From positions 2,790,001 through 2,854,000 of the forward strand of contig NZ_AP024525.1 in assembly GCF_020886775.1 (NCBI RefSeq): a stretch of DNA of 64,000 nt, written 5' to 3'. Origin of the DNA: Sinomonas cyclohexanicum. GTDB lineage: Bacteria > Actinomycetota > Actinomycetes > Actinomycetales > Micrococcaceae. Of the stretch, positions 2,104-61,354 are shown in pieces. How positions within the stretch are numbered: the first letter of the stretch is position 1; each line of letters starts with the position of its first letter. The notes below the pieces were generated by a model. That model saw nothing but the letters and a program-made list of their open reading frames with translations. It searched no databases and was not told where the DNA came from. The position numbers and the translations under genes were made by a program.

Positions 2104-2344
2104 AGTCCTTGGCCTTCCCTACTCGCGAACGTGCCGTGGGCGTGGACCGTCCGCGGCAGGTGCCGCCCGGGGGTCCGCGGGCGCTGCGTCGCGGCCCGCG
2201 GCATGCATGCCGGGCACGCCCTAGCTAACCACACGCACCGCCGGGGGCGCCTCCCTTTCTGACGCCGCGTTGCGCTGACGCTGCGCCCTTTGCCCCCGCA
2301 GGGCGGGCGCGGCGTCGCTGGCGCCCCGTCCCGGCAGACGCACG
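2104..2344. promoter_or_regulatory. Intergenic region upstream of etfB
   Basis: No gene is visible here. The region must carry the etfBA promoter. A perfect 14-bp palindrome (CGGCATGCATGCCG, 2199-2212) lies about 95 bp before the etfB start, where an operator could sit, but I recognise no regulator for it. No convincing -10 box was found. Confidence 0.35.
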
Positions 2345-2350
2345 ACGGCG
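2338..2350. repeat. One copy of a dispersed 13-bp word, ACGCACGACGGCG
   Basis: The core GCACGACGGCG was counted by eye 14 times on both strands. On + it starts at 2340, 26043, 32406, 34833, 42695, 57576 and 58874. On - it occupies 17242-17252, 21234-21244, 24482-24492, 32444-32454, 42712-42722, 50659-50669 and 59969-59979. Twelve copies carry the 12-mer CGCACGACGGCG and eight the full 13-mer. Some copies are in terminators, others in genes. See findings. Confidence 0.7.
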
Positions 2351-2379
2351 CGTCCCGGCTGGGTGCCGGAACGCGCCGT
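2345..2379 (-). terminator. Hairpin after htrA
   Basis: The arms 2345-2359 and 2365-2379 pair over 15 bp with one mismatch around a 5-nt loop, about 65 nt past the htrA stop. The left side overlaps a copy of the dispersed 13-bp word. No U-tract follows, as is common in high-GC actinobacteria. Confidence 0.65.
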
Positions 2380-2444
2380 CGCGCGGTGTTCGGGGAGGGA
2401 TCAGTGGGGGGCGGCTGGTGCTTCGAGGCTCCCGCGCGGCCCGG

Positions 2445-4115
2445 TTACTGGGCGGAGCCCACTGTCACGTCCACATCCTGCGACTGCCCGTTGCGCTGGA
2501 TCGTGGCCTTGACGGTGGTGCCGGGCGCCTGCTGGCGGACGGCCGCGGTGAGCTCGGAGGCGTCCGAGATGGAGAGGCCCGCGAACTGCGTGATGACGTC
2601 GCCCTGCTTGATGCCGGCCTTGTCCGCAGCCGAGCCCGACGTCACGGAGGCGACCTGGGCACCGCTCGAGAAGGACGAGTTCGTCCCGTTCGGGCTGTAG
2701 TCCTGAACGGACACGCCGAGCTGGCCGTGCGAGGCCTTGCCATTGGCGATGATCTCGTTCGCGATCCGGTGGGCGTAGTTCGCCGGGATGCTGAAGCCGA
2801 CGCCGATGTTCCCGGACTGCGAGCTTGAGGAGCTCGAGCCGGTCGAGGCGATGGCTACGTTGATCCCGATCAGCTGGCCCTGGCTGTTCACGAGGGCCCC
2901 GCCGGAGTTGCCCGGGTTGATCGGGGCATCGGTCTGGATGACGTTCAGGCTCACCGTGCTCTGCGCGGCCTGCTGCCGCTGGGACTGTCCCTGCCCCGGA
3001 GGCGCGAACTGGAAGCCCTGCCCGCCGCCGTTGCCCTGCGAGCTGTCGCCGCCCTGCGGGGCGGCCGAGGACGCGACCGAGATGGTGCGGTTGAGCGTCG
3101 AGACAATGCCGTCCGTGACCGTGTTGTCGAGGCCCAGCGGGGCGCCGATGGCGATCGCGGTATCACCGACATTGATCTTGCCCGAGTCGCCGAACGTGAT
3201 CGGGGTGAGGTTCGCGCCGTCGACCTTCACGACCGCGAGGTCGCTCAGCGGGTCCGTGCCGACCACGGTCGCCTTGTAGACGGCACCGTTGCTGGCCCGG
3301 ACCTCGATGGTCGGGTTGGCCACCTGCCCGTCGAGGGTCACGACGTGGGTGTTGGTGAGGATGTGGCCTTGGTCGTCGAGCACGACGCCGGAGCCCGTGC
3401 CAGAGGAGTTGCCGGACGTCACGCCGATGGTCACGACACTCGGGGAGGCCTTCGCAGCCGCCGCGGTCACGGCGTTGACGCTGTCCTGATTGTTCACGAT
3501 GACCGGGCTGGGATTCTGGGACTGCGTGGACGTGCTCGAGGCGCGCGGCGCCCAGAGGCCCGACGTCCCGGCGGCCACGCCGCCGCCGACGAGGCCTGCA
3601 ACGAGCATTCCGCCCACGAGCACGCCCGTGCCCCAGCGCCCCTTCTGGCGCTGGGTGGGCCGCTGCTGCGGCTGGGGCGGGAAGAACGCTGAGCCCTGAT
3701 GGGGCTGCTGCCCGTACTGGGGGTGTTGGCCGTACGGAGCGGGCCCCTGGGGGTGCTGCTGGCCGTACTGGGGGGCCTGCCCCTGGGGCTGCTGGCCGTA
3801 GGGGCCCTGGGGGGCGTGGTTCTGGGGGGTCTGGCCGTAGGCGCCCTGGGGGGCCTGTCCCTGGGGCTGCTGGCCGTGGGGGCCCTCTCCCTGCTGGGGG
3901 GCACGCTGCCCGTACCTCGGCTCGGACCCGCCGGGGGTCGACTGCCCGTAGGGCGGGAGCGTCTGCGTGTGCTGGGGCACTGGCTGGGTGGAGGCGTCCG
4001 AGTGCCGGGGCGCCTCGGCAGGCGGAACGCTGGGCTGCTGGACGGCCGAGCTGCCCTGCTCGTGGGGGTCGGGGGCTCCCGCGCCGGGCACCGGGCGGGG
4101 ATCGCTCTCATTCAT
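2445..4115 (-). CDS. htrA: HtrA/DegP-type membrane-anchored serine protease with PDZ domain
   Basis: This 556-aa protein degrades or chaperones misfolded proteins outside the cell membrane. In order it has a Pro/Gln/Gly-rich cytoplasmic tail (about 1-155) with YGQ repeats, one membrane segment (about 163-188), a trypsin-like domain and a C-terminal PDZ domain (about 462-553). The catalytic triad is visible: His257 (NTHVV), Asp292 (SDLAVVK) and Ser404 (PGNSGGA). A Gly/Gln/Ser-rich insert (about 350-388) sits just before the serine motif, and a Ser run follows it (about 427-433). ATG 4115 was chosen for the AAAGGA site 7-8 nt upstream; an in-frame GTG directly before it is possible. The gene is divergent from the TPM/pspA pair, which suggests a common envelope-stress role. 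Confidence 0.92.
   Translation of the reverse strand: MNESDPRPVPGAGAPDPHEQGSSAVQQPSVPPAEAPRHSDASTQPVPQHTQTLPPYGQSTPGGSEPRYGQRAPQQGEGPHGQQPQGQAPQGAYGQTPQNHAPQGPYGQQPQGQAPQYGQQHPQGPAPYGQHPQYGQQPHQGSAFFPPQPQQRPTQRQKGRWGTGVLVGGMLVAGLVGGGVAAGTSGLWAPRASSTSTQSQNPSPVIVNNQDSVNAVTAAAAKASPSVVTIGVTSGNSSGTGSGVVLDDQGHILTNTHVVTLDGQVANPTIEVRASNGAVYKATVVGTDPLSDLAVVKVDGANLTPITFGDSGKINVGDTAIAIGAPLGLDNTVTDGIVSTLNRTISVASSAAPQGGDSSQGNGGGQGFQFAPPGQGQSQRQQAAQSTVSLNVIQTDAPINPGNSGGALVNSQGQLIGINVAIASTGSSSSSSQSGNIGVGFSIPANYAHRIANEIIANGKASHGQLGVSVQDYSPNGTNSSFSSGAQVASVTSGSAADKAGIKQGDVITQFAGLSISDASELTAAVRQQAPGTTVKATIQRNGQSQDVDVTVGSAQ
3700..3900. repeat. Low-complexity coding repeat in htrA (YGQ/QGQ-rich)
   Basis: Degenerate tandem copies of a GC-rich unit that reads as CCCCAGGG/GGCCAGCAG on the coding strand encode the GQQPQGQAPQ-like tail of HtrA. 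The length of this stretch may vary between strains. It is coding sequence, not an independent element. Confidence 0.6.
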
Positions 4116-4379
4116 CACTGGGTCCTTTCCCTGAACTCCTCCCACTATGGTCCCCCAAGCTGTGCCGGACGCTTCTGTTCTCTGGAAGCTTGCTGGGAGT
4201 CCGCCGAAAGCGTAATGCTCCCCCATCGGTTTCTCTGCGGGCGCACATCACGTGAGTGCACCGCCAGATCCGCGCCCCTAGAATCAAGGTACGTGCCGCC
4301 TCTGCAAGCAAGCGCATCGTGCGCGGGGGGATGCACGGACCCGGGGCCAGGGACTCCGGGCTGACTCGAGGAATGGCGC
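4116..4379. promoter_or_regulatory. Divergent promoter region of htrA and the TPM gene
   Basis: This 264-bp gap separates the divergent htrA and TPM-domain genes, so both promoters should be here. It is visibly less GC-rich than its surroundings near 4140-4250. I could not assign -35/-10 boxes with confidence. Confidence 0.4.
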
Positions 4380-6425: not shown

Positions 6426-6487
6426 GCCGCACGGGGGAACGCGAACGCTTTCCACCGCGACTTTCCACACGAATGAAAGGGAGCACC

Positions 6488-7288: not shown

Positions 7289-7307
7289 TCGCAGGGCGTC
7301 CCAGCCG

Positions 7308-7359
7308 CAGGCACGAGAAGAGGCCCGGACCATGTGGTCCGGGCCTCTTCTCGTGCCTG
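7308..7359. terminator. 24-bp perfect hairpin terminator between pspA and tRNA-fMet
   Basis: Arms 7308-7331 and 7336-7359 are perfectly complementary over 24 bp with a 4-nt ATGT loop. It lies 19 nt past the pspA stop and just beyond the 3' end of the oppositely oriented tRNA, so it can serve both. Confidence 0.85.
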
Positions 7360-7367
7360 TTAGGCCG

Positions 7368-7444
7368 TGGTTGCGGGGGCAGGATTTGAACCTACGACCT
7401 CTGGGTTATGAGCCCAGCGAGCTACCGAACTGCTCCACCCCGCG
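7368..7444 (-). tRNA. Initiator tRNA-fMet (CAT)
   Basis: The gene is 77 nt including an encoded 3' CCA. Folding by eye gives a 7-bp acceptor stem whose first position is the C1-A72 mismatch, and three consecutive G-C pairs in the anticodon stem (GGG-CTCATAA-CCC). Both are hallmarks of bacterial initiator tRNA. The T arm is GTAGG-TTCAAAT-CCTGC, with one G-T wobble. Confidence 0.97.
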
Positions 7445-7525
7445 GCGTAGCTCCCACGATAGCAAGGCGTGAACGCTCGGCCAAATCGAGGTGAATGTGG
7501 TGGGGCCCCACGGCTCACTCCGGCG

Positions 7526-16498: not shown

Positions 16499-17571
16499 CT
16501 GGCGGCCACCGCGGAGGAGTCGGCGATGCGGCCGCCGTACCAGTGCTCGATGAGGGCACGGGAGATCGAGAGGCTGCTCGGGAGCGCGATCTCCCCCGAT
16601 GCGGCGGCCTCGGCGAGCTCGTCCCGGGTGAACCAGCGCGCGCGCAGCACCTCGGCGCCGTCCGGCTGGGCGACCGTGTCCTCGGTGCGGGCCGTGAAGC
16701 CGAGCATGAGCGACGCCGGGAACGGCCACGGCTGCGATCCGAGGTACTGGCATTCGGCGACCCGGACGCCCACCTCCTCGAGGATCTCGCGGGACACGGC
16801 CTGTTCGAGCGACTCCCCCGGCTCCACGAAGCCGGCGAGCGTCGAGAACATCGTCGAACGCATGCGCGCGCCGGTGGCCAGGAGCAGCCTGTCGTCCGGG
16901 CCGACGACAGTCACGATGATCGCGGGATCCGTGCGGGGGAAGTGCTCCGAGCCGTCCTCGGGGCACACCCGGACCCAGCCGCTCTGGACGACCTCGGTGG
17001 CGGCACCGCACCTCGGGCAGCGCGGATGGGCGGCATGCCAGTTGGCGATCGCCGTCGCCTCGAGCAGGATGCCCGCCTCGACCCCGTCCAGTCCGGGACC
17101 CGACTCGCGGAAACCGGCCCAGTTCGTGTCCTCCGGCAGGAGCCCCGCGCCCTCAGCCGCCGGCTCGGACATGACGGCCGAGACCGGCTCGACCGGCTCG
17201 GGCAGCACCACGAGGACGACGTCGGCACCCGGGTTCGCGTGCGCCGTCGTGCGTTCCTGCGGCAGCCTGCCGAGGTACACGAGGAGGCCCTCGAGCCACG
17301 CAGCGGGAAGGAGGTGGGCCGGGAGGAACGCGAGGTGCCCACCCGTGTGGAGGGCACGGTGCTGCGAGTAGAGGACCGCCAGTGTTCCGGGCTGGCCCAC
17401 CACGGCGCGGAGGAAGTCAGCGTCGGCGCGGTCCGCGGACCTGCGGTCCAGGACCTCGGCGCTGACCGGGAGGATTCGGTCGGCCAGCCGTCCCGCCGCG
17501 GGGCCCGCGCCGTCGAACGCGGCGAACGAGGAGACGGGAGGGTGGACGCGCGGAAGCGGGCCGGAAGTCAT
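16495..17571 (-). CDS. nudC: NAD(H) pyrophosphatase NudC
   Basis: NudC hydrolyses NADH/NAD and can remove NAD caps from RNA. The 358-aa protein shows a zinc-ribbon region (HPRCPRCG ... VRVCPEDGSEHFPR), a complete Nudix box at 247-269 (GFVEPGESLEQ, then REILEEVG) and the NudC-specific SQPWPFPASLM motif just after it. Only three cysteines are visible in the zinc region; Asp or His may supply the fourth ligand. The start ATG 17571 is preceded by a TACGGT box at 6 nt, so the mRNA may be leaderless. It heads the nudC-uvrD2-ygjP unit with 4-nt overlap to uvrD2. Confidence 0.93.
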   Translation of the reverse strand: MTSGPLPRVHPPVSSFAAFDGAGPAAGRLADRILPVSAEVLDRRSADRADADFLRAVVGQPGTLAVLYSQHRALHTGGHLAFLPAHLLPAAWLEGLLVYLGRLPQERTTAHANPGADVVLVVLPEPVEPVSAVMSEPAAEGAGLLPEDTNWAGFRESGPGLDGVEAGILLEATAIANWHAAHPRCPRCGAATEVVQSGWVRVCPEDGSEHFPRTDPAIIVTVVGPDDRLLLATGARMRSTMFSTLAGFVEPGESLEQAVSREILEEVGVRVAECQYLGSQPWPFPASLMLGFTARTEDTVAQPDGAEVLRARWFTRDELAEAAASGEIALPSSLSISRALIEHWYGGRIADSSAVAAR

Positions 17572-18906: not shown

Positions 18907-21900
18907 TCACACATCGCCGGGGCTCAGCGCGTCCGCGACGAGCGCCTCGAGCTCGTCCTCTCCCGCGAGGCCGTCGGGGCGCACCACTGTCCCGTCCGCG
19001 AGGTAGCAGAAGGCAGCGCGGATCGACTCGAGCGGCGCGCCCGTGAGTCGCGACCAGGCCAGCCGGTACACGGCGAGCTGCACCGATCTCGCCCGGGCAC
19101 CGGAGCCCCTCGGTGCCCGGCCCGTCTTCCAGTCCACGAGCTCCCAGCCGCCGTCCGCGTCGCGGAAGACGGCGTCGATGCGCCCGCGCACGACGACGGG
19201 CCCGACCCGGGTCTCGATGGGCACCTCGACGTGGGCCGGCCGGCGGTCGGCCCATTCGGTGCGTTTGAAGGCCTTCACGAGGTCGCCGAGCTCGTACGCC
19301 TCGTCGACGTACTCGTCGGAGCTGTCGAAGCCCTCGAGGTCCAGCATCGCGCTCGAGCCGTAGTGTTCCTCGACCCAGGCGTGGAAGGCGGTGCCGCGCC
19401 GGGCGGCCATACCGGGACGGCGCGGGACTGGCCGGCGGAGCTGGCGGACCACCGCGTTGCGGTCCTCACCCAGGGCGACGAGGGTCGAGGCGGAGACGTG
19501 TTCGGGTAGCCTCACGCCCGCAGTGGAGCGGGTCCGCGCCTGTTCCGCGAGGAGGAGCTCGGCCTCGCGTGACCACGCGGCCGTACGTCCCACGGCCGGC
19601 ACGGGCGCGGCGCCGAGCCCGTGGAGCTCGGCGAGGACTCGCACCGCCGCCGCCTCGACGGCAGCACGCCGTCCAGGTGTGAGGCTGCGACGCCGGCCCG
19701 TCGAGGCGTCCAGCGGCCCCTCGAGCGGATCGTACGGCCAGATCGAGCGCTCGGCCTCCGCCCTCAGGGGGTTCTCCTCGGGGACGTCGGCGCCTTCGGT
19801 CCACGCGATGACCTCGAAGCCCTCCTCGCCCGCGGCGGCGTGGAGCTCGTCGAGGAACGGAGAGGACTCCATCGGCCGTGACCGGGTGCTCGTCCACGCG
19901 AACCCTGTTGCCACCAGCAGCGACCGTGCGCGGGTGAAGGCCACGTACGCCAGCCGGCGGTCCTCGCGCTCCGCATGCTCGGTGGCATCCTCGGCGAACA
20001 GCTTCTCCGCATCCATCCAGCCCTTCTGGTCGGGCTGGTCTGCATCCCACGCGGGGAGGTCGGCGCGGTCGCCCCGCAGCGGCCACGGGAGAGCCGAGGG
20101 GCCGCTCGTCCACCGGTCGTTGCCGCCCGAGGGGAACATCCCCCGGTTGAGTCCGGCCACGGCGACCGCGTCCCACTCGAGCCCCTTGGAGGCGTGGACC
20201 GTGAGCAGCTGGATCGCGCCGGGCGTGGGCTCCCTCGGCGCCATGTCGAGCCCCGATTCCTCGTTCGCGGCGGCGTCGAGCCACGCGAGGAACGCGAGCA
20301 GCCCCGGCTCGTTCGACTGGGCGAGGAACGACGCCGCCGCCTCGGCGAACGCATCGATGTTGCGGCGCGCCTCGTGGACCGACGTGGCAGGCCGCGCAGC
20401 CAGCTCGATGTCCAGCAGGAGGGTGTGCTCGACGTGGGAGATGACCGTGCCGAGGTCGTCGCCGGCCACGGTGCGCAGGAGGCGCAGCTCGTCACGGAGC
20501 CGGACCAGCCGCGAGCGGCCCTCTGGGGTGAGCGTCCGCCCGGCCCCGGACGTCCACCCCTCCTTCGGGAGCCTGTCCAGTGCCTCGACGAGGCTCGCTG
20601 CCTCGGCGAGGTCGCCCTCGACGAGGACGTCGTCTTGGGCGCGCGGGGCGTCGAGGTCCTGCTCGTCCGGACGGGCGGCCGAGGCCCTGAAGGCGGCGAG
20701 GTGGCGTGACCAGTCCGCGAGCGCCATGAGGTCCGCGGTGCCGATCCGCCATCGTGCTCCGGCCAGGAGGCGCATGAGCGCGTCGGAGCGGCCCGGGTCG
20801 GCGATGACCCGCAGCGTGGCCACGACGTCGACGATCTCGGGCGTGTCGAGGAGGCCTCCGAGGCCGACGACCTCGTACGGCAGGCCCCGGCGATCGAACT
20901 CCGCGCGGATCGGCGCGAACTGGGACCGCTTGCGGCACAGGACGGCCAGTGTAGGACCGGACTCGGCGGCGGGCGGCCACCCGCGCACGAAGCCCTCCAG
21001 CTCGTCGGCGAGGGCTGCGGCCTCCTGGCGCTCGTCGACGAACCGCCCGACGCGCACCCGCCCGGCTCCCGCGCCGGGGCGGGGCTCGAGCCGGCGGACG
21101 TCCGCGCCCCCGGCTGCCGCGAGGTACGTGGGCGGGTGCGCGAGCGGGGAGGCGACGATGTTCGCGGTCGCGAGCACCGTCATCGTGTTCCGCCAGGCCG
21201 TCGTGAGGTGGGACGTCGACGCGGGGAGGAGCGCGCCGTCGTGCGTCCGGCGGGGGAACCTGCCCGGAAAGCTCTGCAGCTGTCCCGCTGACGCGCCCCG
21301 GAAACCGTAGATGGACTGGTTCGGATCGCCGACTGCCGTGACGGGATGCCCGCCGCCGAACAGCGCGGAGAACAGCACGAGCTGGGCATGGGACGTGTCC
21401 TGGAACTCGTCGAGGATGACCGCCCGGTACTGGCTGCGCAGCAGCGCTCCCGCCTCCGGGACCGTGGTGGCAACCCGGGCGGCCAGCGAGACGAGGTCTC
21501 CGTAGTCAAGGACGCCGCGCTCGCGCTTGGCCTCGGCGTACCGGGCCGCGAGGCGGCCCACGAGTGCACGGTTCTGCAGGGTCCGCAGCATGTCTCCCGC
21601 AGCCTTGGTGGGCGCCTTGGAGCGTCCGCCCGGCGGGAGGGCCGCGAGCCGGGCTGCCTCCGCCTCGAGCCACTCGGCGACCGCCGCAGGTTCACGCAAG
21701 TGCTCGGCGCACTCGCCGGCCATCTGGGTAACGGCGGCGATGAGGGTGCTCTTGGCGGGGAAGCGGTCCCACGTCCCGCCGTCGTACGCCTCGACTACCC
21801 GCGCGGCGAGCTGGAAGGACTGCGCGGGGCCGAGGAGCACGGCATCGCGCTCGACTCCGAGCCGCAGCCCGTGGTCCTGGACCACCGTGTTCGCGAACGA

Positions 21901-22362: not shown

Positions 22363-25300
22363 TCGGTCACCTGCCTTCCTCGCGCGCACAGTGGACAGAC
22401 ATCGGGAAGCCGGCACCCGCCCGTGAAGCCGGCCCCCGGCTCATGCCGAGCCTCGAAGGTTGCCCCTGCCATGATCTCGGCGGCCCTCTCGACGAGCTGG
22501 ATCGCCCACGCCGCGTCGGTCAGGGCCGCCTGCCGCTGGACGACGAGCTTCGTCGACCCGCTGCCCAGCTGGACGAGTTCAGCTCCCCCTGACTCGGGAG
22601 CGTGCGCAGGGGCGCCCGGTTCCTCGCTGAACGCGCCGGCAGCGACGGCCACCTGGTAGGCGGCAAGCTGTGCGTGCTGCTCGAGTTCCGCGGCGGTGGG
22701 CCTGCGGCTTCCGGTCTTGAGGTCCACGACGACGAGCCTGCCCGCCTCGTCGCGCTCGAGCCGATCGACCTGGCCGCGAAGAACCGTGCGCGCGGCGATC
22801 TCGGCCGTGCTGACGCCGTCGAGAGGCGCCTCGAAGTCCACCTCGACACCTGCAAGCTGCCGTTCATTCGTGCGGACGTACTCGGCGAGCTTGCGGACCA
22901 TGTCCGTTGCCTTCGCGAGGTCGATCTCGCCCTCCCACGAGTCGCCGAGGCCCAAAGCCGGCCAGCGGCGCTGGAGCTCCGCGGTGTAGTCGGCGAATGT
23001 CCCGTCTGGGAGGTCCTGCGCGATGGAGTGGACGAGCGTCCCCAGCGTGCGGGCGAAGTCGGTCGCGGCCTCTCCCCCGGCGGCGGAGACGAACCAGTCG
23101 AGCGGGTTCTTCGAGGCGGTCTCCACCTTCGACGGGGAGACGTGCACGGTGCCGTCCGGTGGGACGACCGGCGCAGTGCTGCTCAGAGGGGCGAGACCGT
23201 ACCACTCCCCTGGGTGCGCTCCGGGTACGCCCGCGGCGGCGAGTTCGGCCAGGAGGCCGGCGGCGAAGGGAGCGTCGGCATCGTCGGCCTCGACCGACTG
23301 CCGCAACTCGGCCACGAGCGGCCGCAGGCCGAGCGTGCGGGGCACCTCGGTGAAGGGTCTGACGGCCACGCCCTCGGGCAGGGGCGAGATGTAGTCCAGG
23401 AACGGCGAAGGCACCTCATCCTCCGTCGATGCACCGGTGCAGACGAGACGCTCGGACGCGCGCGAGATGGCCGCGGAGAACGAGCGCAGCTCGTCGTAGC
23501 GGATGTCCTTCAGCCTCGAGCGGGGGGTCACCAGGAGGGCGGACACGACGCCGAGGTCGAGGCAGTCGGTGAAGAGCGTGCTGCCGAGGAGCTCGCCGCG
23601 CAGCCTCGTGTTGGGCCACGTGCCGTCCTGGAGTCCAGCGACGAACACGAGCCGCCATTCGCGCCCGGCCGCACTCGCCGGGGTGAGGAGCTCGACCGCG
23701 TCGGCGCTCTGTGCCCGGGGCGCGAGCGTGTCCATGGGCAGCTCCTGCTCGGTGAGGTAGTCGAGGAACTGCGCGGGCGAGGCGCCGGGGAGCCTGTCGA
23801 CGTAGCGCTCCGCCGTGTGGAAGAGCGCCATGAGCGCGTCGAGGTCGCGGTCCGCGCGCAGCCCGAGCACGCCCCCGGCCAGCGCGAGGTCGTACCAGCG
23901 TTTGGAGAGCCCGGCTGCATCCCACAGGGCCCACAGCACGGTCTCCGCGGTGGCCCCAGGTTCGGCTGACGCAGACCGGCCTCCGGCGATCATGCGTGCG
24001 ATCCTGCGGGCCGCGCTCGCCCCAATGCCGAGCGAGTCGAGCGTGCCCGGCACCCCGACGGCCTCGACGAGGAGCGCGTCGCTTCCCCGTCCGCCGCCGG
24101 CGGACAGCTCGAGCTGGCGGAGGGACTGGCGGAGGCGGCGGAGCTCGAGGGCGGACGCGCCGCCGATGCGGGAGGTGAGCAGCTCGACAACGGTCTCGGC
24201 CGTCAGCTGGCCGGGATCCAGCGCCACGCGGAAGGCCGTCAGGAGGGGCCGGACCGCCTCCTCGTCCCGCACTGCCGTCTCCGCGACCGGGACGGAGACC
24301 GGGATGCCCTGCCCGGCGAGGAAGCGCTGGATCTGCGCGAGCTTGGCGCCGGACCGTACGATGACGGCCATCTCCCCGTACTCGACACCGCCGAGCAGGC
24401 GGGCCTCCTGGATCCTGTGTGAGAGGTAGCGCAGCTCGTGCAGCGGCGAGTGGAGGACATGCGCCTCGGCAGCGGGAGCGCCGCCGTCGTGCGCGGGCCC
24501 GGCACCGCCCGCCCCTGCTCGCGTGCCAGCACGGCGCGGCGCGGCGAGCCTGCGCGCGGCCTGCCCGCCCGGAACCGCGGAGATACGCTGTGCGACGCCC
24601 TCCCACGCCTCCGCGAGCTCCGCGGGGAGTCGGTGGGACGTGGTCAGGGACAGCTCGGTGAGCGGGCCCAGGAGCGCCCGGAGGCTCGGCACAAGCTCGG
24701 GCCGCGCGCCGCGGAAGCCCTGCACCACGACGTCCGGCGCGGCCGTGGCGATGACGTCCCTGCCCTCGCCCAGGACTGCGAGCAGCTCGAGGATCGAGGG
24801 ACTCGACTCCTGGACGTCGTCCACGCACACGAGCCCGAGCCGCGCCCGCTCCTGGGCGAGGAGCTCCGGATCCTCGGCCAGGATCATGCGGGCAGCCGTA
24901 ATGATGCCCGCAGGGTCGAATGCCTCTGGCATGCGCAGCTCGAGGACGTCCCGGTACTCCGTGTACAGCTGGGCCGCGGCGATCCACTCGGGCCGGCCAG
25001 CTCTGGCCCCGAGCTCGGCGAGTTCGTCCGCGGTGGTGCCGTACTCGGTGATCCGGTCGAACAGCTCGCGGACCTCGTGCCGGAATCCGCGCGTGGCAAG
25101 GGCGGCCTCGAACCCCTTCGGCCACGAGGGCCCACGCTGCGAGGCGAGGTGGCCCTCGAGGAGCTGCTTGACGATGAGGTCCTGTTCGGCACCGGAGAGC
25201 AGCCGCGGTGGCCGCGGCAGCCAGTCGAGGCGGCCCTCGGTCCGGGCCCGGCGGATGAGGTCGAACGCGTAGGACTGCCACGTCCGCGCGGGAGGTGCGC

Positions 25301-26029: not shown

Positions 26030-26125
26030 GTGGGAGCGGGACGCACGACGGCGCTCCCCCGCCGCACGCCCGGCGGATCCGGTGCCGCCGGGCGCGCCCA
26101 CGCGAGAAACGTCGGAGGGCCCGCT

Positions 26126-32405: not shown

Positions 32406-32454
32406 GCACGACGGCGGCCGCGCACCCCGCGCGGGCCGGGGCGCGCCGTCGTGC
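32406..32454 (-). terminator. Hairpin built from an inverted pair of the dispersed word
   Basis: GCACGACGGCG (32406-32416) and its exact complement (32444-32454) form an 11-bp stem with a GC-rich inner hairpin. It lies 37 nt past the LLM gene stop and ends the long hem operon. Confidence 0.7.
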
Positions 32455-34564: not shown

Positions 34565-35502
34565 GGCGTCTCCTTCTGTGCGGCAGGTGAGTGGGCGACG
34601 GCGCGGGCCACGGCATCTACGATGCCTTCCGGGGTGGGCCTCGCCGCGGTGGCCGCGGCGGGGATGCCGAGCCGCTCCAGCTCGGCGGCGGTCGGCTCGC
34701 CGATCGCAATGAGCCGGGTCGCCTCGAGGGGGCGCAGGACGGCGTGGATGCGGCGCGCCGCACTCGGGGAGGCGGCCACGACGGCGTCGAGCCTCCCTGC
34801 GGCGAGCTCGCGGCTCGCCTCGTCCGGGGTGAGCACGACGGCGGGCGCCTCCTGCCCGGCCGGCTCGCCGACCGCGAGGCCCTCCACGAGGCGCAGGGAC
34901 GGGTCCGCGGGGTAGTCGACCGTGCGGTAGGCGGTGACCGTGTCCACGGCCCAGCCGCGGGCGTCGAGGCCCTCGGCGAGCGTCGGGGCAGCGAGGTCGC
35001 TCTGCGGGATGAGCACGCGGGTGATGCCGGCGCCGTCGCCGCCGGCGGCGCCCCCGTCGTCCGCCATCGCCCACAGCTCGACGAGCCCCTCGGCGGACTG
35101 CTTGCCCTCCGGTGCGAGGTCCACGCGCAGGCCCTCGGCCTCGATGACCCTGCGGGAACTCGGGCCGATGGTCGCGATCCGGACGCCCGGCGGCACGAGG
35201 CCCGGGAGCCCGACGCCGCGGGCCGCCGCGACCTCCTTGAGCGCACGGACCGTCGTGATGCTCGAGATGACGAGCCACCCGTACTCCCCGGCGGCGAGCC
35301 GGCCGAGGGCCGCGGCGAGCGCCTCCTGGTCGTGGGCGCGCTCGAAGTCGATGAGCGGCAGCAGCAGCGGCTCGCCGCCTGCTTCCGCGAGCGCCCGCGC
35401 CATCGCCCCCGCCCGGTCGGGTGTGCGGGTCAGCAGGACCCGCACACCCGCAAGGGGTGACCCGTCAACACCGGGATGTGACCCCTCACCGCTCGCGCTC
35501 AT
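34561..35502 (-). CDS. hemD: Uroporphyrinogen-III synthase
   Basis: HemD inverts ring D and cyclises hydroxymethylbilane. The 313-aa protein is poorly conserved, as usual, but has two alternating domains: [32 protein letters not shown] at the start (first ten [10 protein letters not shown]), [13 protein letters not shown], and [13 protein letters not shown] late. ATG 35502 overlaps the hemC stop by 4 nt and its own stop overlaps hemB, giving a tightly coupled hemC-hemD-hemB unit. Confidence 0.9.
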
Positions 35503-42693: not shown

Positions 42694-42723
42694 CGCACGA
42701 CGGCGACCACTCGCCGTCGTGCG
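42694..42723. terminator. Hairpin formed by an inverted pair of the dispersed word
   Basis: CGCACGACGGCGA (42694-42706) pairs exactly with 42711-42723 around a CCAC loop. It sits between converging hemA and moeZ. Confidence 0.8.
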
Positions 42724-50444: not shown

Positions 50445-51751
50445 CAGTTCCCTCCTGTCGCGGCCGCCTGCGCGGCCGGGGTCCCCGCGAGGCGGGGGGC
50501 GAATCGGTCTGGCAGGAACGCGTCCCATCTGGGGTCGGCGCGACCCGCGAGGAGCCCCGCGCACACCTCGGCGGCAACGGGGGTGAGCAGCACTCCATGC
50601 CGGAAGAATCCCGTGGCGATGATGAGCCCGGGTACGGTGCCCGCAGCGCCGGGCCCCTCGCCGTCGTGCGTCCGCACGCGCCCGAGGAGCGGGGCGTTGT
50701 CCGGGGTGCCGGGGCGCGCGCGGGCCGTGGTCTCGTACAGCTCGAGCTCGGCCACGGCCGGCACGAGCGCCTGGGCGTCGCGCAGCAGCTCGTAGACGCC
50801 GCCGGCGGACACGGCGTCGGAGCCGTCCTCGCGCTGGGTTGCGCCGATCACTACGGTCCCATCCTCGCGCGGGACGATGTACACGGGCCTGCCGCGTACG
50901 AGCCCGCGCACGGTGGCGGTCACGAGCGGCCGGAGGCGCTCGGGCACCCGCAGCCGCAGGATGTCGCCGTAGACAGGCCGCAGCGGCAGGACGACGGGCA
51001 GCCCGCCCAGCTCGCGCGCGCCGAGCCCGTTGGCCACGATCGTCTCCTCGGCGCGCAGCTCGCGCCCGTCATCGAGCACGACGCCGGCCACTCGCCCAGC
51101 GCCGTCAGGCCCAGCGCCGTCAGGCACAGCGCCGTCAGGCACAGCGCCGCCGGCCACTCGCCCGCCACCGTCGGGTCCCTCCCACAGGAGACTCGCCGCG
51201 CGGGCCCGGACAACTGCACCCTCGCCGGAGCGCTCCACGAGCCGTGCGAGCAGGGCGGCGACGAGCCGACGCGGGTCCACCTGGTGGTCGGCCTCGATCC
51301 GGAACGCACCGGCGATCCCGGGCGCCAGCAGGGGCTCATCGGCGCGGGACTCGCGGACTGTCAGGGGCCGGACCGCGAGGCCGTGCGCCTCCTGGGCGGC
51401 CCGGAGGTCGGCGAACGCGGTGCGGTCGGCGGCGTCGGCAGCGAGGCACAGCGTGGGGGTGCCCAGGTACCCCCAGTCCGGGCCAGCGGCCTCCGCGAAG
51501 GAGGGCCAGAGCTCGGCCGAGCGCAGCATGAGGCCGAGGAGGTCCTCCTCCTGGTAGTGGTACTCGCTCACGGCGGCGAGCATGCCCGCCGCGGCGTAGC
51601 TGGCGCCCGAACCCGGGGCGGGATCCACCACCGTGACGCGTCGCCCGGTCCGCGCGGCCTCCCACGCGATGCCCAGCCCGATGACCCCGGCGCCGACCAC
51701 GATGACGTCAGATGGGACGACGTCCGAGTGGACACAGCCCGTGCTCTCCAT
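50444..51751 (-). CDS. thiO: Glycine oxidase ThiO
   Basis: This FAD enzyme makes dehydroglycine for ThiG. The 435-aa protein has the nucleotide fold VIVVGAGVIGLGIAWEAA near 16-33, GASYAAAGMLA next, and the C-terminal GLIIATGFFRHGVLLTPV. A low-complexity insert of AVPDG/AGPDG repeats (about 200-218) comes from a 15-bp tandem repeat. ATG 51751 lies directly behind a TPP riboswitch whose last stem is next to the AAGGA site. Confidence 0.93.
   Translation of the reverse strand: MESTGCVHSDVVPSDVIVVGAGVIGLGIAWEAARTGRRVTVVDPAPGSGASYAAAGMLAAVSEYHYQEEDLLGLMLRSAELWPSFAEAAGPDWGYLGTPTLCLAADAADRTAFADLRAAQEAHGLAVRPLTVRESRADEPLLAPGIAGAFRIEADHQVDPRRLVAALLARLVERSGEGAVVRARAASLLWEGPDGGGRVAGGAVPDGAVPDGAGPDGAGRVAGVVLDDGRELRAEETIVANGLGARELGGLPVVLPLRPVYGDILRLRVPERLRPLVTATVRGLVRGRPVYIVPREDGTVVIGATQREDGSDAVSAGGVYELLRDAQALVPAVAELELYETTARARPGTPDNAPLLGRVRTHDGEGPGAAGTVPGLIIATGFFRHGVLLTPVAAEVCAGLLAGRADPRWDAFLPDRFAPRLAGTPAAQAAATGGN
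51096..51155. repeat. 15-bp tandem repeat inside thiO
   Basis: Units CCAGCGCCGTCAGGC at 51096 and 51111 are identical. The next (51126) differs by one base and the last (51141) is partial. The block is flanked by two copies of CGCCGGCCACTCGCCC. The frame is kept (5 residues per unit). Confidence 0.85.
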
Positions 51752-51761
51752 AGTTCCTTCC

Positions 51762-51870
51762 CTCCGCCGGCATGACCCGGATCAGGTGAAGCGGTCGGCT
51801 CTGGCCCTCTCAGCCCGGGCTCGTGCTGGCACCAATGGCGATGTCACACGCGCGGGCTCCCGCAGTACTG
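51762..51870 (-). promoter_or_regulatory. TPP riboswitch (thi element) controlling thiO-thiS-thiG
   Basis: Read on the minus strand, the region contains GGGAGCCC near its start, CTGAGAGGG (pyrimidine-sensor side) and ACCTGATCCGGGTCATGCC, then GGCGGAGGGA, the conserved thi-box core. The last stem ends about 10 nt before the thiO ATG, next to AAGGA, so control of translation initiation is likely. The extra stem between GGGAGC and CTGAGA is long, as in many actinobacteria. Confidence 0.93.
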
Positions 51871-51875
51871 CGGTC

Positions 51876-55729: not shown

Positions 55730-56058
55730 GGCCAACCCCCGGAAGAGCGGGGTTCCGCGGCAGACCAGCGCGAGCGCGCCGTCCCACGGACACCCAGCCA
55801 CTGCGAGACGGCGTGGCGGAGCTCACAATTCCATGGAATGGAACGCGACGCGGTATCCTTGGACGGTTATTGGATGCCCGATCGTCCTGATGCGATCCCC
55901 TTTCACCCGTCGGCAGGCGCCGGCACTTTGATAGCCCGCGATCGGCTTCCGCTGGATGGCCGGCGCGCGCTCGGCGCTCCAGACGCCGTGGCCCGAGGTC
56001 ATGGCAGTCTGTCGAGCGAGACCCGCTCAGGCCCCTATGGAGAGGGACCTTCCCCCCT
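55730..56058 (+). promoter_or_regulatory. Long leader region of the RhlE-type helicase gene
   Basis: This is a 329-bp gap. TATCCT (55854-55859) is a -10 candidate and a perfect 12-bp palindrome ATTCCATGGAAT (55828-55839) lies just upstream, where a regulator could bind. If used, the mRNA would carry a leader of about 190 nt, as DEAD-box helicase genes often do. A 74-codon open frame here (55838-56062) is not convincing. Confidence 0.4.
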
Positions 56059-57951
56059 GTGAACGAAGTCCACACCCACGAACTGCTGACCGATGACTCC
56101 GGAACCGAGACGCTCGAGACCCAGGAGACCATCACCAACGACGCCCCCGTGCGCCAGGAGACCCTCAAGACGTTCTCCGACTACGGCGTCGCTCCCGAGA
56201 TCGCCCAGTCCCTCGCGGACGCGGGCATCCTCAACCCGTTCCCGATCCAGTCGATGACGCTCGGCGTCGCCCTCGGCGGCCATGACATCATCGGCCAGGC
56301 AAAGACCGGCACGGGCAAGACCCTTGGCTTCGGCATCCCCGCGCTGCAGCGCACCATCCCGGCCGAGCACCTGGACTACGCGAAGCTCCCCGTCCCGGGC
56401 GCCCCGCAGGCCCTCGTCGTCGTACCCACGCGCGAGCTCGCCATCCAGGTGGGCAAGGACCTGCAGACCGCGAGCAAGCGCACCACGCTGCGCGTCGAGG
56501 TCATCTACGGCGGCCGCGCGTACGAGCCGCAGATTGAGGCGCTGCAGCGCGGCGTCGAGGTCGTCGTCGGCACGCCGGGCCGCCTCATCGACCTGCACCG
56601 CCAGCGGCACCTGAACCTCAAGAACGTTCGCATGATCGTTCTGGACGAGGCGGACGAGATGCTGGACCTCGGCTTCCTGCCCGATGTCGAGACGCTCATG
56701 GCCGCGGTGCCCGCAGTCCGCCAGACGCTCCTGTTCTCGGCCACGATGCCCGGTCCCGTCGTCGCCATGGCGCGCCGCTACATGACCCAGCCCACCCACA
56801 TCCGGGCGAGCGACCCCAACGACGACTCGATCACCAAGAAGGACATCCGCCAGGTGATCTACCGGGCTCACCAGCTCGACAAGGGTGAGGTCGTTGCGCG
56901 CATCCTCCAGGCTGAGGGCCGGGGCCGCACCATCATCTTCACGAAGACCAAGCGCACCGCGGCGAGGCTCTCCGAGGAACTGGTCGACCGCGGTTTCGCC
57001 GCGGGCGCACTCCACGGCGACCTGGGCCAGGGTGCCCGCGAGCAGGCGCTCCGGGCATTCCGCCACGGCAAGGTGGACGTGCTCGTCGCGACCGACGTGG
57101 CCGCACGCGGCATCGACGTCGAGGACGTCACCCACGTGATCAACTTCCAGTGCCCCGAGGACGAGAAGGCCTACCTGCACCGCGTGGGCCGCACCGGCCG
57201 CGCCGGGCACAAGGGAACCGCCGTGACGTTCGTCGACTGGGAAGACGTCCCCCGCTGGACCCTCATCAATAAGGCGCTCGGCCTCAACGTCCCCGAGCCC
57301 ATCGAGACGTACTCCTCGTCTCCGCACCTGTACACCGACTTGGACATCCCGGCCGGCACAAAGGGCCGCCTCCCGCGCAACAAACGCGTGCTCGAGGGCC
57401 TCGAGGGCGAGGTGCTCGAGGACCTCGGCGAGCCCGGCAAGAAGGCACACCAGGGCGGCAAGTCCCGTCGGGGCGAGAAGGGCCCGCGCCATGAGGACGG
57501 CGCTCGGCGGGAGGGCCGCGAAGAGGGCAGGTCCCGCCGAGGGGGCAAGGGCCGCCGAAACGCCGAGGCTGAGACGCACGACGGCGCCGCCCCCGCACAC
57601 GCGGCCGACACCGCTGCGGGCACCGCAGAAGGGGTCGAGGGCGCGGGCAAGTCCGGCCACGGCCACGGCCGTGCCGACCGTCCCGCCCACAGCGAGACGA
57701 GCGGCGAGGGCCGCCGCCGGCGCCGCCGGACCGTGGTGGAGGAGGCCGGCGAGGCCGCTCCCCACGCCAGCGGCAAGGAGCGCGACGCCAAGGAGCGCGC
57801 CCCGAAGTCCGCCTCGACCGCGCTCGCCGTGCACCTCGTGGAGGCGGAGGACGGAGCGCCGGTGGACCGCGGAGTCGCGGCAGCCCGCCGTCGCCGGTCG
57901 CGCACTCGCCGCCGCAACGGCGAGGTCGTCTCCCGCACCGAAGCCGAGTAG
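56059..57951 (+). CDS. rhlE: DEAD-box RNA helicase (RhlE type)
   Basis: This 630-aa RNA helicase has the Q motif (FPIQSMTLGVALGGHD), AKTGTGKT, PTRELA, VLDEADEM, LLFSATMP, ATDVAARGID and HRVGRTGRAG in order within about 40-400. After that comes a long basic and acidic low-complexity tail (about 440-630; [19 protein letters not shown]) likely to bind RNA. The start is GTG 56059. The tail contains one copy of the dispersed 13-bp word (THDGA). Roles in ribosome assembly or cold adaptation are typical. Confidence 0.93.
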   Translation: MNEVHTHELLTDDSGTETLETQETITNDAPVRQETLKTFSDYGVAPEIAQSLADAGILNPFPIQSMTLGVALGGHDIIGQAKTGTGKTLGFGIPALQRTIPAEHLDYAKLPVPGAPQALVVVPTRELAIQVGKDLQTASKRTTLRVEVIYGGRAYEPQIEALQRGVEVVVGTPGRLIDLHRQRHLNLKNVRMIVLDEADEMLDLGFLPDVETLMAAVPAVRQTLLFSATMPGPVVAMARRYMTQPTHIRASDPNDDSITKKDIRQVIYRAHQLDKGEVVARILQAEGRGRTIIFTKTKRTAARLSEELVDRGFAAGALHGDLGQGAREQALRAFRHGKVDVLVATDVAARGIDVEDVTHVINFQCPEDEKAYLHRVGRTGRAGHKGTAVTFVDWEDVPRWTLINKALGLNVPEPIETYSSSPHLYTDLDIPAGTKGRLPRNKRVLEGLEGEVLEDLGEPGKKAHQGGKSRRGEKGPRHEDGARREGREEGRSRRGGKGRRNAEAETHDGAAPAHAADTAAGTAEGVEGAGKSGHGHGRADRPAHSETSGEGRRRRRRTVVEEAGEAAPHASGKERDAKERAPKSASTALAVHLVEAEDGAPVDRGVAAARRRRSRTRRRNGEVVSRTEAE

Positions 57952-57968
57952 GAAGCAGAACAGGCAGC

Positions 57969-58826
57969 ATGGGTGGGTCCGGGCTGTGGTCCCCCGACGG
58001 CCCGGATCTCGTGGTCCACGGGGACAACGCCGCGGTGCTGCCGGCCCTGCCGGACGGCGCGTTCACGATGGTGTACATCGACCCGCCGTTCAACACGGGC
58101 CGGCGGCAGCGGCGCCAGGAGCTGAGCATGGTGCGCAGCGCCGAGGGCGACCGCATCGGGTTCTCGGGCCAGCGCTACGAGACGATCAAGGGCGCCCTGC
58201 ACAGCTACGACGACACGTTCGGGGACTACTGGGCCTTCCTCGAGCCGCGCCTGCTCGAGGCGTGGCGGCTCCTGGCGCGGGACGGCACGCTGTACCTGCA
58301 TCTGGACTACCGGGAGGTGCACTACGCCAAGGTCATGCTGGATGCGATCTTCGGGCGGGAATGCTTCCTCAACGAGATCATCTGGGCCTACGACTTCGGC
58401 GCGCGGACCAGGCGCCGCTGGCCCACCAAGCATGACAACGTGCTCGTCTATGTCAAGGACCCCTCCGCCTACCACTTCGACACCGACGAGGTGGACCGCG
58501 AGCCGTACATGGCGCCGGGCCTCGTCACCCCGGAGAAGCGCGAGCTGGGCAAGCTGCCCACGGACGTGTGGTGGCACACGATCGTCTCCCCCACCGGGCG
58601 CGAGAAGACCGGTTACCCGACGCAGAAGCCCGAGGGGCTCGTGCGGCGCATGGTCGCGGCCTCGAGCCGGCCGGGCGACTGGGTGCTCGACTTCTTCGCG
58701 GGCTCCGGGACGCTGGGCGCGGTGGCCCACCGCCTCGGCCGTCGGTTCGTGTGCGTCGACGAGAACCCGCAGGCGGTCGAGGTGATGGCCGCGCGGCTCC
58801 CCTCGGCGCGCGTGGTCAGCGCCTGA
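57969..58826 (+). CDS. Orphan site-specific DNA methyltransferase (N6-adenine/N4-cytosine, beta-class order)
   Basis: This 285-aa enzyme has catalytic motif IV DPPFNTG at 38-44 preceding the AdoMet motif FFAGSGT at 242-248, the beta-class order. YPTQKPEGLVRRMVAAS (motif X-like) lies just before the latter. The target recognition part is between (about 100-190). DPPF fits N6-adenine methylation, but N4-cytosine cannot be excluded. It begins 17 nt after the helicase and no restriction gene is beside it; the nearest nuclease-like gene (48257) is frameshifted. A regulatory or repair-marking role is possible. Confidence 0.85.
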   Translation: MGGSGLWSPDGPDLVVHGDNAAVLPALPDGAFTMVYIDPPFNTGRRQRRQELSMVRSAEGDRIGFSGQRYETIKGALHSYDDTFGDYWAFLEPRLLEAWRLLARDGTLYLHLDYREVHYAKVMLDAIFGRECFLNEIIWAYDFGARTRRRWPTKHDNVLVYVKDPSAYHFDTDEVDREPYMAPGLVTPEKRELGKLPTDVWWHTIVSPTGREKTGYPTQKPEGLVRRMVAASSRPGDWVLDFFAGSGTLGAVAHRLGRRFVCVDENPQAVEVMAARLPSARVVSA

Positions 58827-58859
58827 GCCTCGGCGCGGGTCCCGCTGCTGGACCTGCGG

Positions 58860-59714
58860 TCAGGCCTGCGGACGCACGACGGCGGCGCCCCGCCCCTGGC
58901 GTTCGATCTCGCCGAGGACGTCCTCCTCGGTCAGGTTCTCACCGAGGCGGTTGGGCTTGCCCGCGCCGTGGTAGTCGGAGGACCCGGTGACGAACAGACC
59001 GTGCTCGGCAGCCAGGCCGAGCAGGAACGCCCGCCGGTCCTCGGGGTTGTCCCGGTGGAAGACCTCGAGCCCGGCCAGTCCTGCGTCGATCATCTCCCGG
59101 TAGACGGGCTCCCCGACCGTGCGGCCCCGGGCGGAGGCCACCGGGTGGGCGAAGACCGGGACGCCGCCCGCGGACCGGATGAGCGAGACGGCGAGCGCGG
59201 GCTCCGGCGCGTAGTGCTGGACGAAATACCGCGACCGCGAGGACAGGATCGTGGCGAACGCCTCGGTGCGGTCACCCACGAGGCCGGCCGCGACGAGCGC
59301 GTCCGCAATGTGCGGCCGGCCCACGGTCGCCCCCGGGGCCACGTGCCGGGTGACATCGTCCCACGAGAGCGGGTAGTCCTCGGCCAGGAGCGAGACCATG
59401 TGCTCCGCCCGGGAGAGCCGGGCGTCCTTGGCCTTGGTGATCTCCTCGAGGAGCCCCGCGTGGGTCGGGTCATGGAGATAGCTGAGCACGTGCACGCTGA
59501 TGCCCTCGGGGGTGCGGCACGAGACCTCCATCCCCGGGACGAGGGTCAGCCCGAGCCCCCGCGCGGCGTCGCCGGCTTCCTGCCAGCCGCCGGTCGAGTC
59601 GTGGTCGGTGATGGCGAGGACATCCAGACCCGCCTCGACGGCCGCGGCCACGAGCTCGGCCGGGCTCTCGGTGCCGTCCGAGACGGTCGAGTGGGCATGC
59701 AGATCGATCCTCAC
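58860..59714 (-). CDS. PHP-domain phosphoesterase
   Basis: This 284-aa protein has all PHP metal motifs: HAHSTVSDGT at about 5-14, ITDHDSTGG, GMEVSC, and the later HPVAS and SDYHG. Related enzymes hydrolyse 3',5'-nucleoside bisphosphates or are 5'-3' exonucleases for RNA/DNA; the substrate here is unproven. GTG 59714 starts the canonical VRIDLHAHST and is preceded by TATCGT at 6 nt (leaderless). The last codons contain one copy of the dispersed word. Confidence 0.9.
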   Translation of the reverse strand: MRIDLHAHSTVSDGTESPAELVAAAVEAGLDVLAITDHDSTGGWQEAGDAARGLGLTLVPGMEVSCRTPEGISVHVLSYLHDPTHAGLLEEITKAKDARLSRAEHMVSLLAEDYPLSWDDVTRHVAPGATVGRPHIADALVAAGLVGDRTEAFATILSSRSRYFVQHYAPEPALAVSLIRSAGGVPVFAHPVASARGRTVGEPVYREMIDAGLAGLEVFHRDNPEDRRAFLLGLAAEHGLFVTGSSDYHGAGKPNRLGENLTEEDVLGEIERQGRGAAVVRPQA

Positions 59715-59720
59715 GACCCC

Positions 59721-59726
59721 ACGATA
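59721..59726 (-). promoter_or_regulatory. -10 box TATCGT, 6 nt before the PHP gene
   Basis: TANNNT at the leaderless distance from GTG 59714. Confidence 0.5.
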
Positions 59727-59776
59727 GCGCGCTGGACATCCATGCCCCCGCGGGAGATCGGTGGAAGAATGGCACA

Positions 59777-61354
59777 GTGAGTGTTTCAGAACCCCTCGCC
59801 GGCGATCCCGGCCAGTCCGCAGACGCGCAGCAGCCCATCGAGGACCGGGTGAACAACCGGTCGCAGCGCCCCACATCGGACGCGTTCAAGGCCTTCATGG
59901 CGTCCCAGTGGGCGCCCTCCGACCCGTCCGTCCCCGCCAGGGACGAGGTCGCCGACTTCGCGGCCCGGCGCCGTCGTGCGGTGTCCGACCGGTTCCCCGG
60001 CGAGCGCCTCATCATCCCGGCCGGCCCGCTCAAGGTGCGCTCAAACGACACCGACTACCGCTTCCGCCCGCACTCGGCATTCGCGCACCTGACCGGTCTC
60101 GGGCTGGACCACGAGCCCGACGCCGTGCTCGTCCTCGAGCCCGTCGACGACGGCGCGGGCGAGGGCGGCGGCCACCACAGCGCCACGCTCTACTTCCGTC
60201 CCCTCGCCGGCCGCGACACCGAGCAGTTCTACGCCGACGCCCGCTCGGGCGAGTTCTGGATCGGTGCCCGCCCCACCCTCGCCGAGCTCGAGTCGAGGCT
60301 CGGAATCCCGACCGCGCACCTCGACGGCCTCGAGGTCGCCGTCACGAAGGGGGTCGGAGCCCCACAGATCGGCGGCATCTCGGTGCGCCTTGTCCGCAAG
60401 GTCGATGAGAACCTCGACGCCCTCGTGGACACGGCCCGGTACAACACCGCCCAGGACCCCGAGAACCTCGACCTGAGCGAGTTCGACGCGCTCGACGACC
60501 AGCTCGCGGAGGCCCTCTCCGAGCTGCGCCTGACCAAGGACGAGTGGGAGGTCCGGCAGATGCGGGAGGCCGTGGCGGCCACCGCGGCCGGCTTCGAGGA
60601 GATCGTCAAGGCCCTGCCCCGGGCCGTCGCGCACGCACGCGGCGAGCGGGTCGTGGAGGGCGTGTTCTTCGCCAAGGCACGCGAAGAGGGCAACGACCTC
60701 GGCTACGAGACCATCGCCGCCGCTGGCAACAACGCCACGGTGCTCCACTGGATCCGCAACAACGGCGCCGTGCGCGAGGGCGACCTCATCCTCGTGGACG
60801 CGGGCGTCGAGGCCGAGTCCCTCTACACGGCGGACGTGACCCGCACCCTCCCGGTGAGCGGCACCTACTCCGAGGTCCAGCGCCGCGTCTACCAGGCGGT
60901 GCTCGACGCCGCCGACGCGGCCTTCGCCTCGGCGAAGCCCGGGGTCAGGTTCCGCCAGGTCCACGCCGCCGCCATGGAAGTCCTCGCCGCCCGCCTCGAG
61001 GAGTGGGGCATCCTGCCCGTCACCGCGGCCGAGGCGCTCTCCGACGCGGGCCAGCAGCACCGCCGCTGGATGCCGCACGGTACGAGCCACCACCTCGGCC
61101 TCGACGTGCACGACTGCGCCCAGGCCCGCCGCGAGCTGTACCTCGACGGCGAGCTGCGTCCGGGCATGGTCTTCACGATCGAGCCGGGGCTCTACTTCAA
61201 GGCGGAGGACCTCGCGATCCCCGAGGAGTACCGCGGGATCGGCGTGCGGATCGAGGACGACATCCTCATGACCGCCGCGGGCCCCGTCAACCTCAGCTCG
61301 GCGCTCCCCCGGACCCTGGAGGACGTCGAGACGTGGATGGCCTCCCTCCGCTAG
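59777..61354 (+). CDS. pepP: Xaa-Pro aminopeptidase (aminopeptidase P, M24B)
   Basis: This enzyme cleaves N-terminal residues before proline. The 525-aa protein has an N-terminal aminopeptidase-P domain (DYRFRPHSAFAHLTGL) and a pita-bread catalytic domain with the five metal ligands in LVDAGVEAES, TADVTRTLP, HGTSHHLGLDVHD, TIEPGLYF and GVRIEDDIL. The start is GTG 59777, with AAGAAT 6 nt upstream as a possible weak -10 box; the gene is divergent from the PHP gene. The first 35 residues are extra. Confidence 0.94.
   Translation: MSVSEPLAGDPGQSADAQQPIEDRVNNRSQRPTSDAFKAFMASQWAPSDPSVPARDEVADFAARRRRAVSDRFPGERLIIPAGPLKVRSNDTDYRFRPHSAFAHLTGLGLDHEPDAVLVLEPVDDGAGEGGGHHSATLYFRPLAGRDTEQFYADARSGEFWIGARPTLAELESRLGIPTAHLDGLEVAVTKGVGAPQIGGISVRLVRKVDENLDALVDTARYNTAQDPENLDLSEFDALDDQLAEALSELRLTKDEWEVRQMREAVAATAAGFEEIVKALPRAVAHARGERVVEGVFFAKAREEGNDLGYETIAAAGNNATVLHWIRNNGAVREGDLILVDAGVEAESLYTADVTRTLPVSGTYSEVQRRVYQAVLDAADAAFASAKPGVRFRQVHAAAMEVLAARLEEWGILPVTAAEALSDAGQQHRRWMPHGTSHHLGLDVHDCAQARRELYLDGELRPGMVFTIEPGLYFKAEDLAIPEEYRGIGVRIEDDILMTAAGPVNLSSALPRTLEDVETWMASLR

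Follow-up and report, generated by a model that had tools for sequence, protein, structure and literature searches.

The stretch of DNA analysed here (the window) comprises 64,000 nucleotides of the Sinomonas cyclohexanicum chromosome, positions 2,790,001-2,854,000 of a genome assembled as one contig of 4,413,566 bases. Scattered over it is an 11-mer word, GCACGACGGCG, which the initial annotation had likened to a DNA uptake sequence (DUS or USS). The word occurs 14 times exactly, seven times on each strand, as compared with 0.38 ± 0.60 copies (largest count 2) in 100 dinucleotide shuffles of the window. When extended, 12 of the copies read CGCACGACGGCG and 8 read ACGCACGACGGCG, and all of the counts first reported for the word were thereby reproduced. 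Using a simple gene caller, we assigned eight copies to genes and six to intergenic DNA (Table 1), numbers that may err by a few (e.g., at 17242) since the gene calls are our own. Genes were named by their Pfam domains, which agree with the RhlE, AdnB, ThiO, NudC and PHP protein names given previously to genes carrying the word. The two exact inverted pairs that had been described as terminators are indeed present and intergenic, and we infer their terminator action from position and shape. Rfam, applied to the window at gathering cut-offs, returned only a tRNA and a TPP riboswitch, and no known RNA family at the hairpins.

Table 1. Copies of the word and associated features in the window (positions counted from the first base of the window).
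Position	Strand	Feature	Remarks
2340..2350	+	Word copy, called intergenic	First arm of an imperfect hairpin
17242..17252	-	Word copy in NudC-like gene (NUDIX and zinc ribbon)	Reads ERTTAH; caller chose the opposite-strand frame
21234..21244	-	Word copy in AdnB-like gene (UvrD and PD-(D/E)XK)	THDG; Pfam
24482..24492	-	Word copy in AdnA-like gene (second UvrD/PD-(D/E)XK protein)	AHDG; Pfam
26043..26053	+	Lone intergenic word copy	Between divergent genes
32406..32454		Exact inverted pair, intergenic, terminator-like hairpin	Between tandem genes; words 32406-32416 (+) and 32444-32454 (-)
34833..34843	+	Word copy in HemD gene	Antisense to gene; Pfam
42695..42722		Exact inverted pair, intergenic, 6-nt loop	Between convergent genes; words 42695-42705 (+) and 42712-42722 (-)
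50659..50669	-	Word copy in ThiO-like gene (DAO family oxidoreductase)	THDG; Pfam
51742..51873	-	TPP riboswitch at start of ThiO-like gene	Score exactly at the gathering cut-off
57576..57586	+	Word copy in DEAD-box helicase gene	THDG; Pfam
58874..58884	+	Word copy in PHP-domain gene	Antisense to gene, AAVVR; Pfam
59969..59979	-	Word copy in M24/aminopeptidase P gene	Antisense to gene; Pfam

The word is not restricted to the window. Across the whole 4.41 Mb genome we counted 974 copies (499 and 475 on the two strands; 19 for the reversed-pattern control), spread over the chromosome at a density of ~0.22 per kb. We then examined a 464-kb sample, consisting of twenty 20-kb stretches along the chromosome together with the window, in which 101 copies were found compared with the 7.4 expected under an order-4 Markov model, and in which the top-scoring word at every length from 8 to 13 was a part or an extension of GCACGACGGCG. 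Flank information ends sharply after the 11-mer and two upstream bases are weakly fixed. A better notation for the motif is GCACGACGGCG with a loose RM in front of it, the most tolerant positions being 1, 2, 3 and 9. Between genes, single-substitution variants fell at position 2 (n=12, nine of them C to G), 9 (n=7), 1 and 4 (n=3 each), 3 (n=2) and 11 (n=1), and none at positions 5, 6, 7, 8 and 10 of the sampled copies. Within genes, variants at positions 7, 8, 10 and 11 summed to 10 against 30.6 under the null, which is partly inflated at these positions because the word sites themselves were resampled.

Two aspects of this distribution lend the uptake reading no support. Spacing was random-like (CV 1.09 over the first 100 forward copies), and the lack of even spacing counts against it. 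Moreover, the three stretches with the fewest copies (0, 1 and 1) carry typical chromosomal genes, many with housekeeping roles as judged by eye from their translations, and not foreign islands; thus, a depletion of the word in foreign DNA cannot be claimed in its favor. A phage origin of the word was rejected, as only one stretch with an exact pair was found in a viral collection.

The 464-kb sample contains 425 genes and is 90% coding, with 45.5 kb of intergenic DNA, and its copies divide into 63 genic and 38 intergenic. Synonymous shuffling within genes yielded 13.0 ± 3.1 genic copies (maximum 22 in 200 shuffles), and a codon-pair null, in which proteins were kept and codons were resampled according to the codon-pair usage of those genes, yielded 13.9 ± 2.8 (maximum 20 in 40). 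For intergenic DNA the expectation was 0.94 copies at most. The excess therefore persists under codon-preserving shuffles, being ~4.5-fold within genes and at least 40-fold between them. Genic copies run both with the gene (35) and against it (28), and 47 of the 63 lie in phase 2, most using two frames of preferred codons. Of two related words, CCACGACGGCG, whose main-frame translation is likewise HDG, showed no excess in genes (13 vs 12.7 expected), and neither did CGACGACGGCG (22 vs 16.7).

With the replication origin placed near coordinate 0 from the switch in gene strand, the 101 sampled copies were not biased towards either replication strand (45 leading, 56 lagging). Inverted pairing, in turn, is frequent: 20 of the 38 intergenic copies are the arms of 10 exact inverted pairs, all arranged as word, loop and reverse complement, and situated between convergent genes (6), between tandem genes (3) or at a stretch edge (1), and never between divergent genes. 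Two of these 10 pairs belong to one duplicated piece, in which two identical stretches ~2 kb apart (L048:12255-14330) each carry an inverted word pair, i.e., a local duplication. Two pairs inside called genes have the opposite arrangement. Allowing one mismatch, a downstream partner arm accompanies 23 of the 38 intergenic copies, yet only 4 of the 63 genic ones. In the whole genome there are 72 exact inverted pairs, 3-33 nt apart, compared with 0 for the reversed control. Inner stems and loops differ among the exact pairs listed; of the 28-31 bp hairpin at 42,695, by contrast, near-identical copies are present at several places in this genome and in other genomes of the C-type described below. 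The sampled pairs thus occupy the positions of terminators, and termination would be their predicted activity.

To compare congeners, we counted two forms of the word, the C-type CGCACGACGGCG and the G-type CGGACGACGGCG, on both strands of 15 Sinomonas genomes (Table 2). The C-type was preferred in nine genomes and the G-type in six, with reversed controls of 2-12 for the word counts and 0 for the exact pairs. The preference extends to both compartments. In genes, C and G copies stood at 79:39 in S. cyclohexanicum and G121, and at 12:36 in G150, G135 and G175 (odds ratio 3.5, z 3.2, corrected by the codon-pair null); between genes, the corresponding counts were 48:13 and 0:10. Of all the observations, this joint shift of dialect in genic and intergenic copies argues most strongly for a single process acting across the genome. 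In a comparison of one 5.5-kb locus, identity to S. cyclohexanicum was 79-83% in the eight other C-type genomes and 74-77% in the six G-type genomes; the C-type relatives being the closer ones at this locus, the dialect follows descent.

Table 2. C-type and G-type words in 15 Sinomonas genomes (exact pairs counted with the C- and G-type 11-mers).
Genome	Preferred form	CGCACGACGGCG/CGGACGACGGCG copies	Exact pairs, C-/G-type
S. cyclohexanicum	C	663/195	72/11
G121	C	496/157	37/5
G197	C	498/172	29/11
G198	C	489/181	33/15
G006	C	370/320	26/12
G037	C	333/135	24/8
G162	C	282/191	22/10
G104	C	253/208	16/12
G084	C	246/204	19/16
G150	G	73/514	0/29 (two of 29 nested)
G199	G	92/380	0/16
G200	G	90/299	2/9
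G186	G	86/269	1/8
G175	G	43/245	1/12
G135	G	57/224	1/6

Six window sites were also compared with 18-kb regions of G121, G198, G150 and G199, a comparison that serves as an illustration because the sites are few. At 34,833 (HemD), the C-word is found in G198 and G150, the G-word in G121, and neither in G199. The copy at 21,234 (AdnB-like) is present in G198, absent from G121 and unaligned in G150 and G199, and at 24,482 (AdnA-like) none of the four relatives has the word at the aligned place. The copy at 26,043 and the pair at 32,406/32,444 were unalignable or absent in all four; near the place of this pair, G121 has two G-words in opposite orientation, 20 bases apart and in the reverse arrangement. 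At 25,027, G198, G150 and G199 carry the C-word, from which the S. cyclohexanicum gene departs by two substitutions. Between species, then, two aligned coding places differ by substitution.

Among 197 genomes of the family, copies of GCACGACGGCG range from 0 to 974 per genome. Inverted pairs of the core, ACGACGGCG, were found in 157 of the 197 (reversed controls 0-4), amounting to 138 in S. cyclohexanicum, 73-80 in four g19 genomes, 24-39 in five g20 genomes and 19 in G124, and to 0 or 1 in all g11, g21, g22 and g23 genomes; a hand estimate from core density puts chance pairs at about 8 in S. cyclohexanicum and 5 in G047. A possible third dialect is ACGACGACGGCG, the form enriched in G047 (60 kb) and G020, although within genes Asp-Asp codons act as a confounder. 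In the wider order, 93 of 396 genomes contain pairs of CACGACGGCG, the maximum outside Sinomonas being 10 (G024). In a scan of named species, 19 of 80 stretches among the matches listed were from Sinomonas, and the rest mainly from other Micrococcaceae, with scattered others.

The genic excess also reaches beyond Sinomonas. All 11 high-GC genomes sampled had more of the core ACGACGGCG than synonymous shuffles, by factors of 1.9 to 3.2. Measured against the codon-pair null, genic GCACGACGGCG copies numbered 10 vs 1.0 in G020 (9.8-fold; 0 of 10 sampled copies intergenic), 7 vs 1.2 in G017 (6.0-fold; 4 intergenic), 8 vs 1.9 in G064 (4.2-fold; 1 intergenic), 9 vs 2.6 in G031 and G124 together (3.5-fold; 1 intergenic copy each) and 10 vs 2.4 in G024 (8 intergenic). 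In some genera poor in word pairs, then, the genic excess equals or exceeds that of S. cyclohexanicum, albeit on small counts. It follows that either the system is family-wide or a sequence context missed by the nulls explains part of the excess. All sampled high-GC members of the family had an as yet unexplained ACGACGGCG-type genic excess beyond codon-pair nulls, including those with few intergenic copies. In the low-GC genomes G142, G126, G088 and G093 (120-160 kb each), no other word was prominent, with genes poorly called in the first three and gene calling unsuccessful in G093.

Other repeats were encountered along the way. In G150 (L265-L272), a family around ATCTGTACCCGAGACG, unrelated to the word, has 12-mers with 16-17 copies in 160 kb against <0.1 expected. 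In G121 (L097-L103), CGAGGTCACCC occurs 16 times in 140 kb vs 1.1 expected. G024 (L273-L278) has repeats around TCGCAGCAATGG (7 copies in 120 kb vs 0.02), and there the word is preceded by AA (AAGCACGACGGC, 7 copies vs 0.06), perhaps another flank preference.

PMC12616744 states in its introduction that DUS and USS are known from two families only, Neisseriaceae and Pasteurellaceae. The Sinomonas word shows the traits of this class, namely copy number, excess over bias, inverted pairs, dialects and uptake machinery. As the DUS of Neisseriaceae are described in PMC3630211, the two share a continuous short word lying on both strands, within and between genes, with inverted pairs after genes, and dialects congruent with phylogeny, which keep a core and vary at one or two bases around it. 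Inverted pairs and genome-wide enrichment are likewise given as traits of Pasteurellaceae USS (PMC12616744). Judged by its sequence, the word is neither of the two: the Neisserial core CTG (PMC3630211) and the Pasteurellaceae core GCGG (PMC12616744) are on neither of its strands, and unlike USS it lacks visible AT-rich outer parts in its flanks. Its density (974 in 4.4 Mb, 0.22 per kb, in a single strain) is below that of classical DUS/USS genomes, for which PMC3630211 speaks of 'thousands' of copies and up to 1% of the chromosome. The hosts differ as well, Neisseriaceae having type IVa pili and Sinomonas being a soil actinobacterium with Tad loci.

The competence genes that an uptake system would call for were found. 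In S. cyclohexanicum, ComEC and ComEA adjoin, DprA is also present, and three Tad/Flp loci carry the ATPase and Flp or TadE-like proteins. However, comEC is present in all 197 family genomes, word-poor ones included, and therefore does not track the word. Flp pili are required for natural transformation of Micrococcus luteus, according to the review PMC6370729; in three further texts of the M. luteus literature (PMC4322843, PMC8467076 and PMC12849477), the terms 'uptake sequence' and 'sequence-specific' are absent.

Several other processes could have produced such a word. It could be a favored terminator stem of the high-GC members of the family, kept because RNA polymerase or a termination factor prefers it, or spread in part as a repeat hairpin, with the genic copies arising from shared sequence context. 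This we consider unlikely, and nevertheless a serious rival because pair-poor genera have an equally large genic excess. It agrees with the partner arms of the intergenic copies, all of which are arranged as word, loop and reverse complement, with the placement of pairs after genes, with the core pairs across the family and the core excess in the sampled high-GC genomes, and with the recurrence of one 28-31 bp hairpin form. It does not predict a fixed word inside genes, where 59 of 63 copies stand without a partner arm, on both strands and above the codon-pair null; CCACGACGGCG, with its identical peptide, is not in excess, and the joint shift of C and G, in genes too, is left unexplained. REP-type palindromic repeats resemble the word in their intergenic hairpins. 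On spread by insertion of whole palindromes the observations point both ways: the genic copies are single words and two aligned coding places differ by substitutions, but one intergenic hairpin form recurs nearly whole.

The word might also be a binding site for a chromosomal protein, such as a nucleoid, segregation, methylation or recombination factor of the Chi kind, an account we regard as improbable. Chi in E. coli has a copy number range that includes about a thousand, and Chi and KOPS, like this word, are short words in many dispersed copies; the tight core with tolerant edges would suit such a site, and that both AdnAB-like genes carry a window copy is an anecdote at most. Yet Chi and KOPS are strongly strand-biased, in leading-strand orientation, and the absence of such a bias here led us to reject identity with either. 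Nor is the word palindromic, and a protein site would not be expected to form inverted pairs after genes so often. Finally, codon and oligonucleotide bias alone, to which the prevalence of phase 2 and the core excess in other genomes might point, is a highly implausible account and already largely refuted: the intergenic copies and the two coding nulls speak against it, and the exact pairs and the opposite C/G preference of congeners add to this, although the genic excess of other genera stays unexplained.

We therefore return to uptake, with a putative DUS function as the leading hypothesis: the Sinomonas word may be a form of an element working like a DNA uptake sequence, although we place this slightly short of an even chance. 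The original proposal is partly supported. In its favor stand the genome-wide genic and intergenic excess, inverted pairs, tight core with tolerant outer bases, dialects, substitutions at aligned coding places, lack of strand bias and competence genes; the equally large genic excess in pair-poor relatives within the family speaks against it, as does the nearly whole recurrence of one hairpin form, as in a repeat. Mechanistically, a surface DNA receptor, perhaps part of a Tad/Flp pilus feeding ComEA and ComEC, would prefer word-bearing fragments, which would then recombine into the chromosome. By such transformation drive, the uptake bias could gradually load both strands of the genome with the word at every site where protein sequences and hairpins can accommodate it; a hairpin following a gene would have room for two copies in inverted arrangement. 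A switch of receptor preference at the second base, to C or to G, would generate the two Sinomonas dialects. More guardedly, we propose as a possibility that an uptake-sequence system of independent origin exists in Micrococcaceae, with the 9-bp core ACGACGGCG, clade-specific 5' bases (GC, GG and perhaps CG) and a Tad-type pilus receptor, in which transformation would have spread the word through genes as well as terminators, and dialects would restrict transformation between species.

Should uptake prove not to be responsible, a word that occurs throughout the genome and varies jointly in genes and hairpins between sister species still needs explaining. If uptake is responsible, the natural dialects would serve to find the receptor, and the naturally transformable Micrococcus luteus would allow a direct test. 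The word would then represent a third, independent case of self-DNA discrimination, in a Gram-positive phylum, the two known families being proteobacterial according to PMC12616744, and genomes that mark themselves would be a general outcome of transformation.
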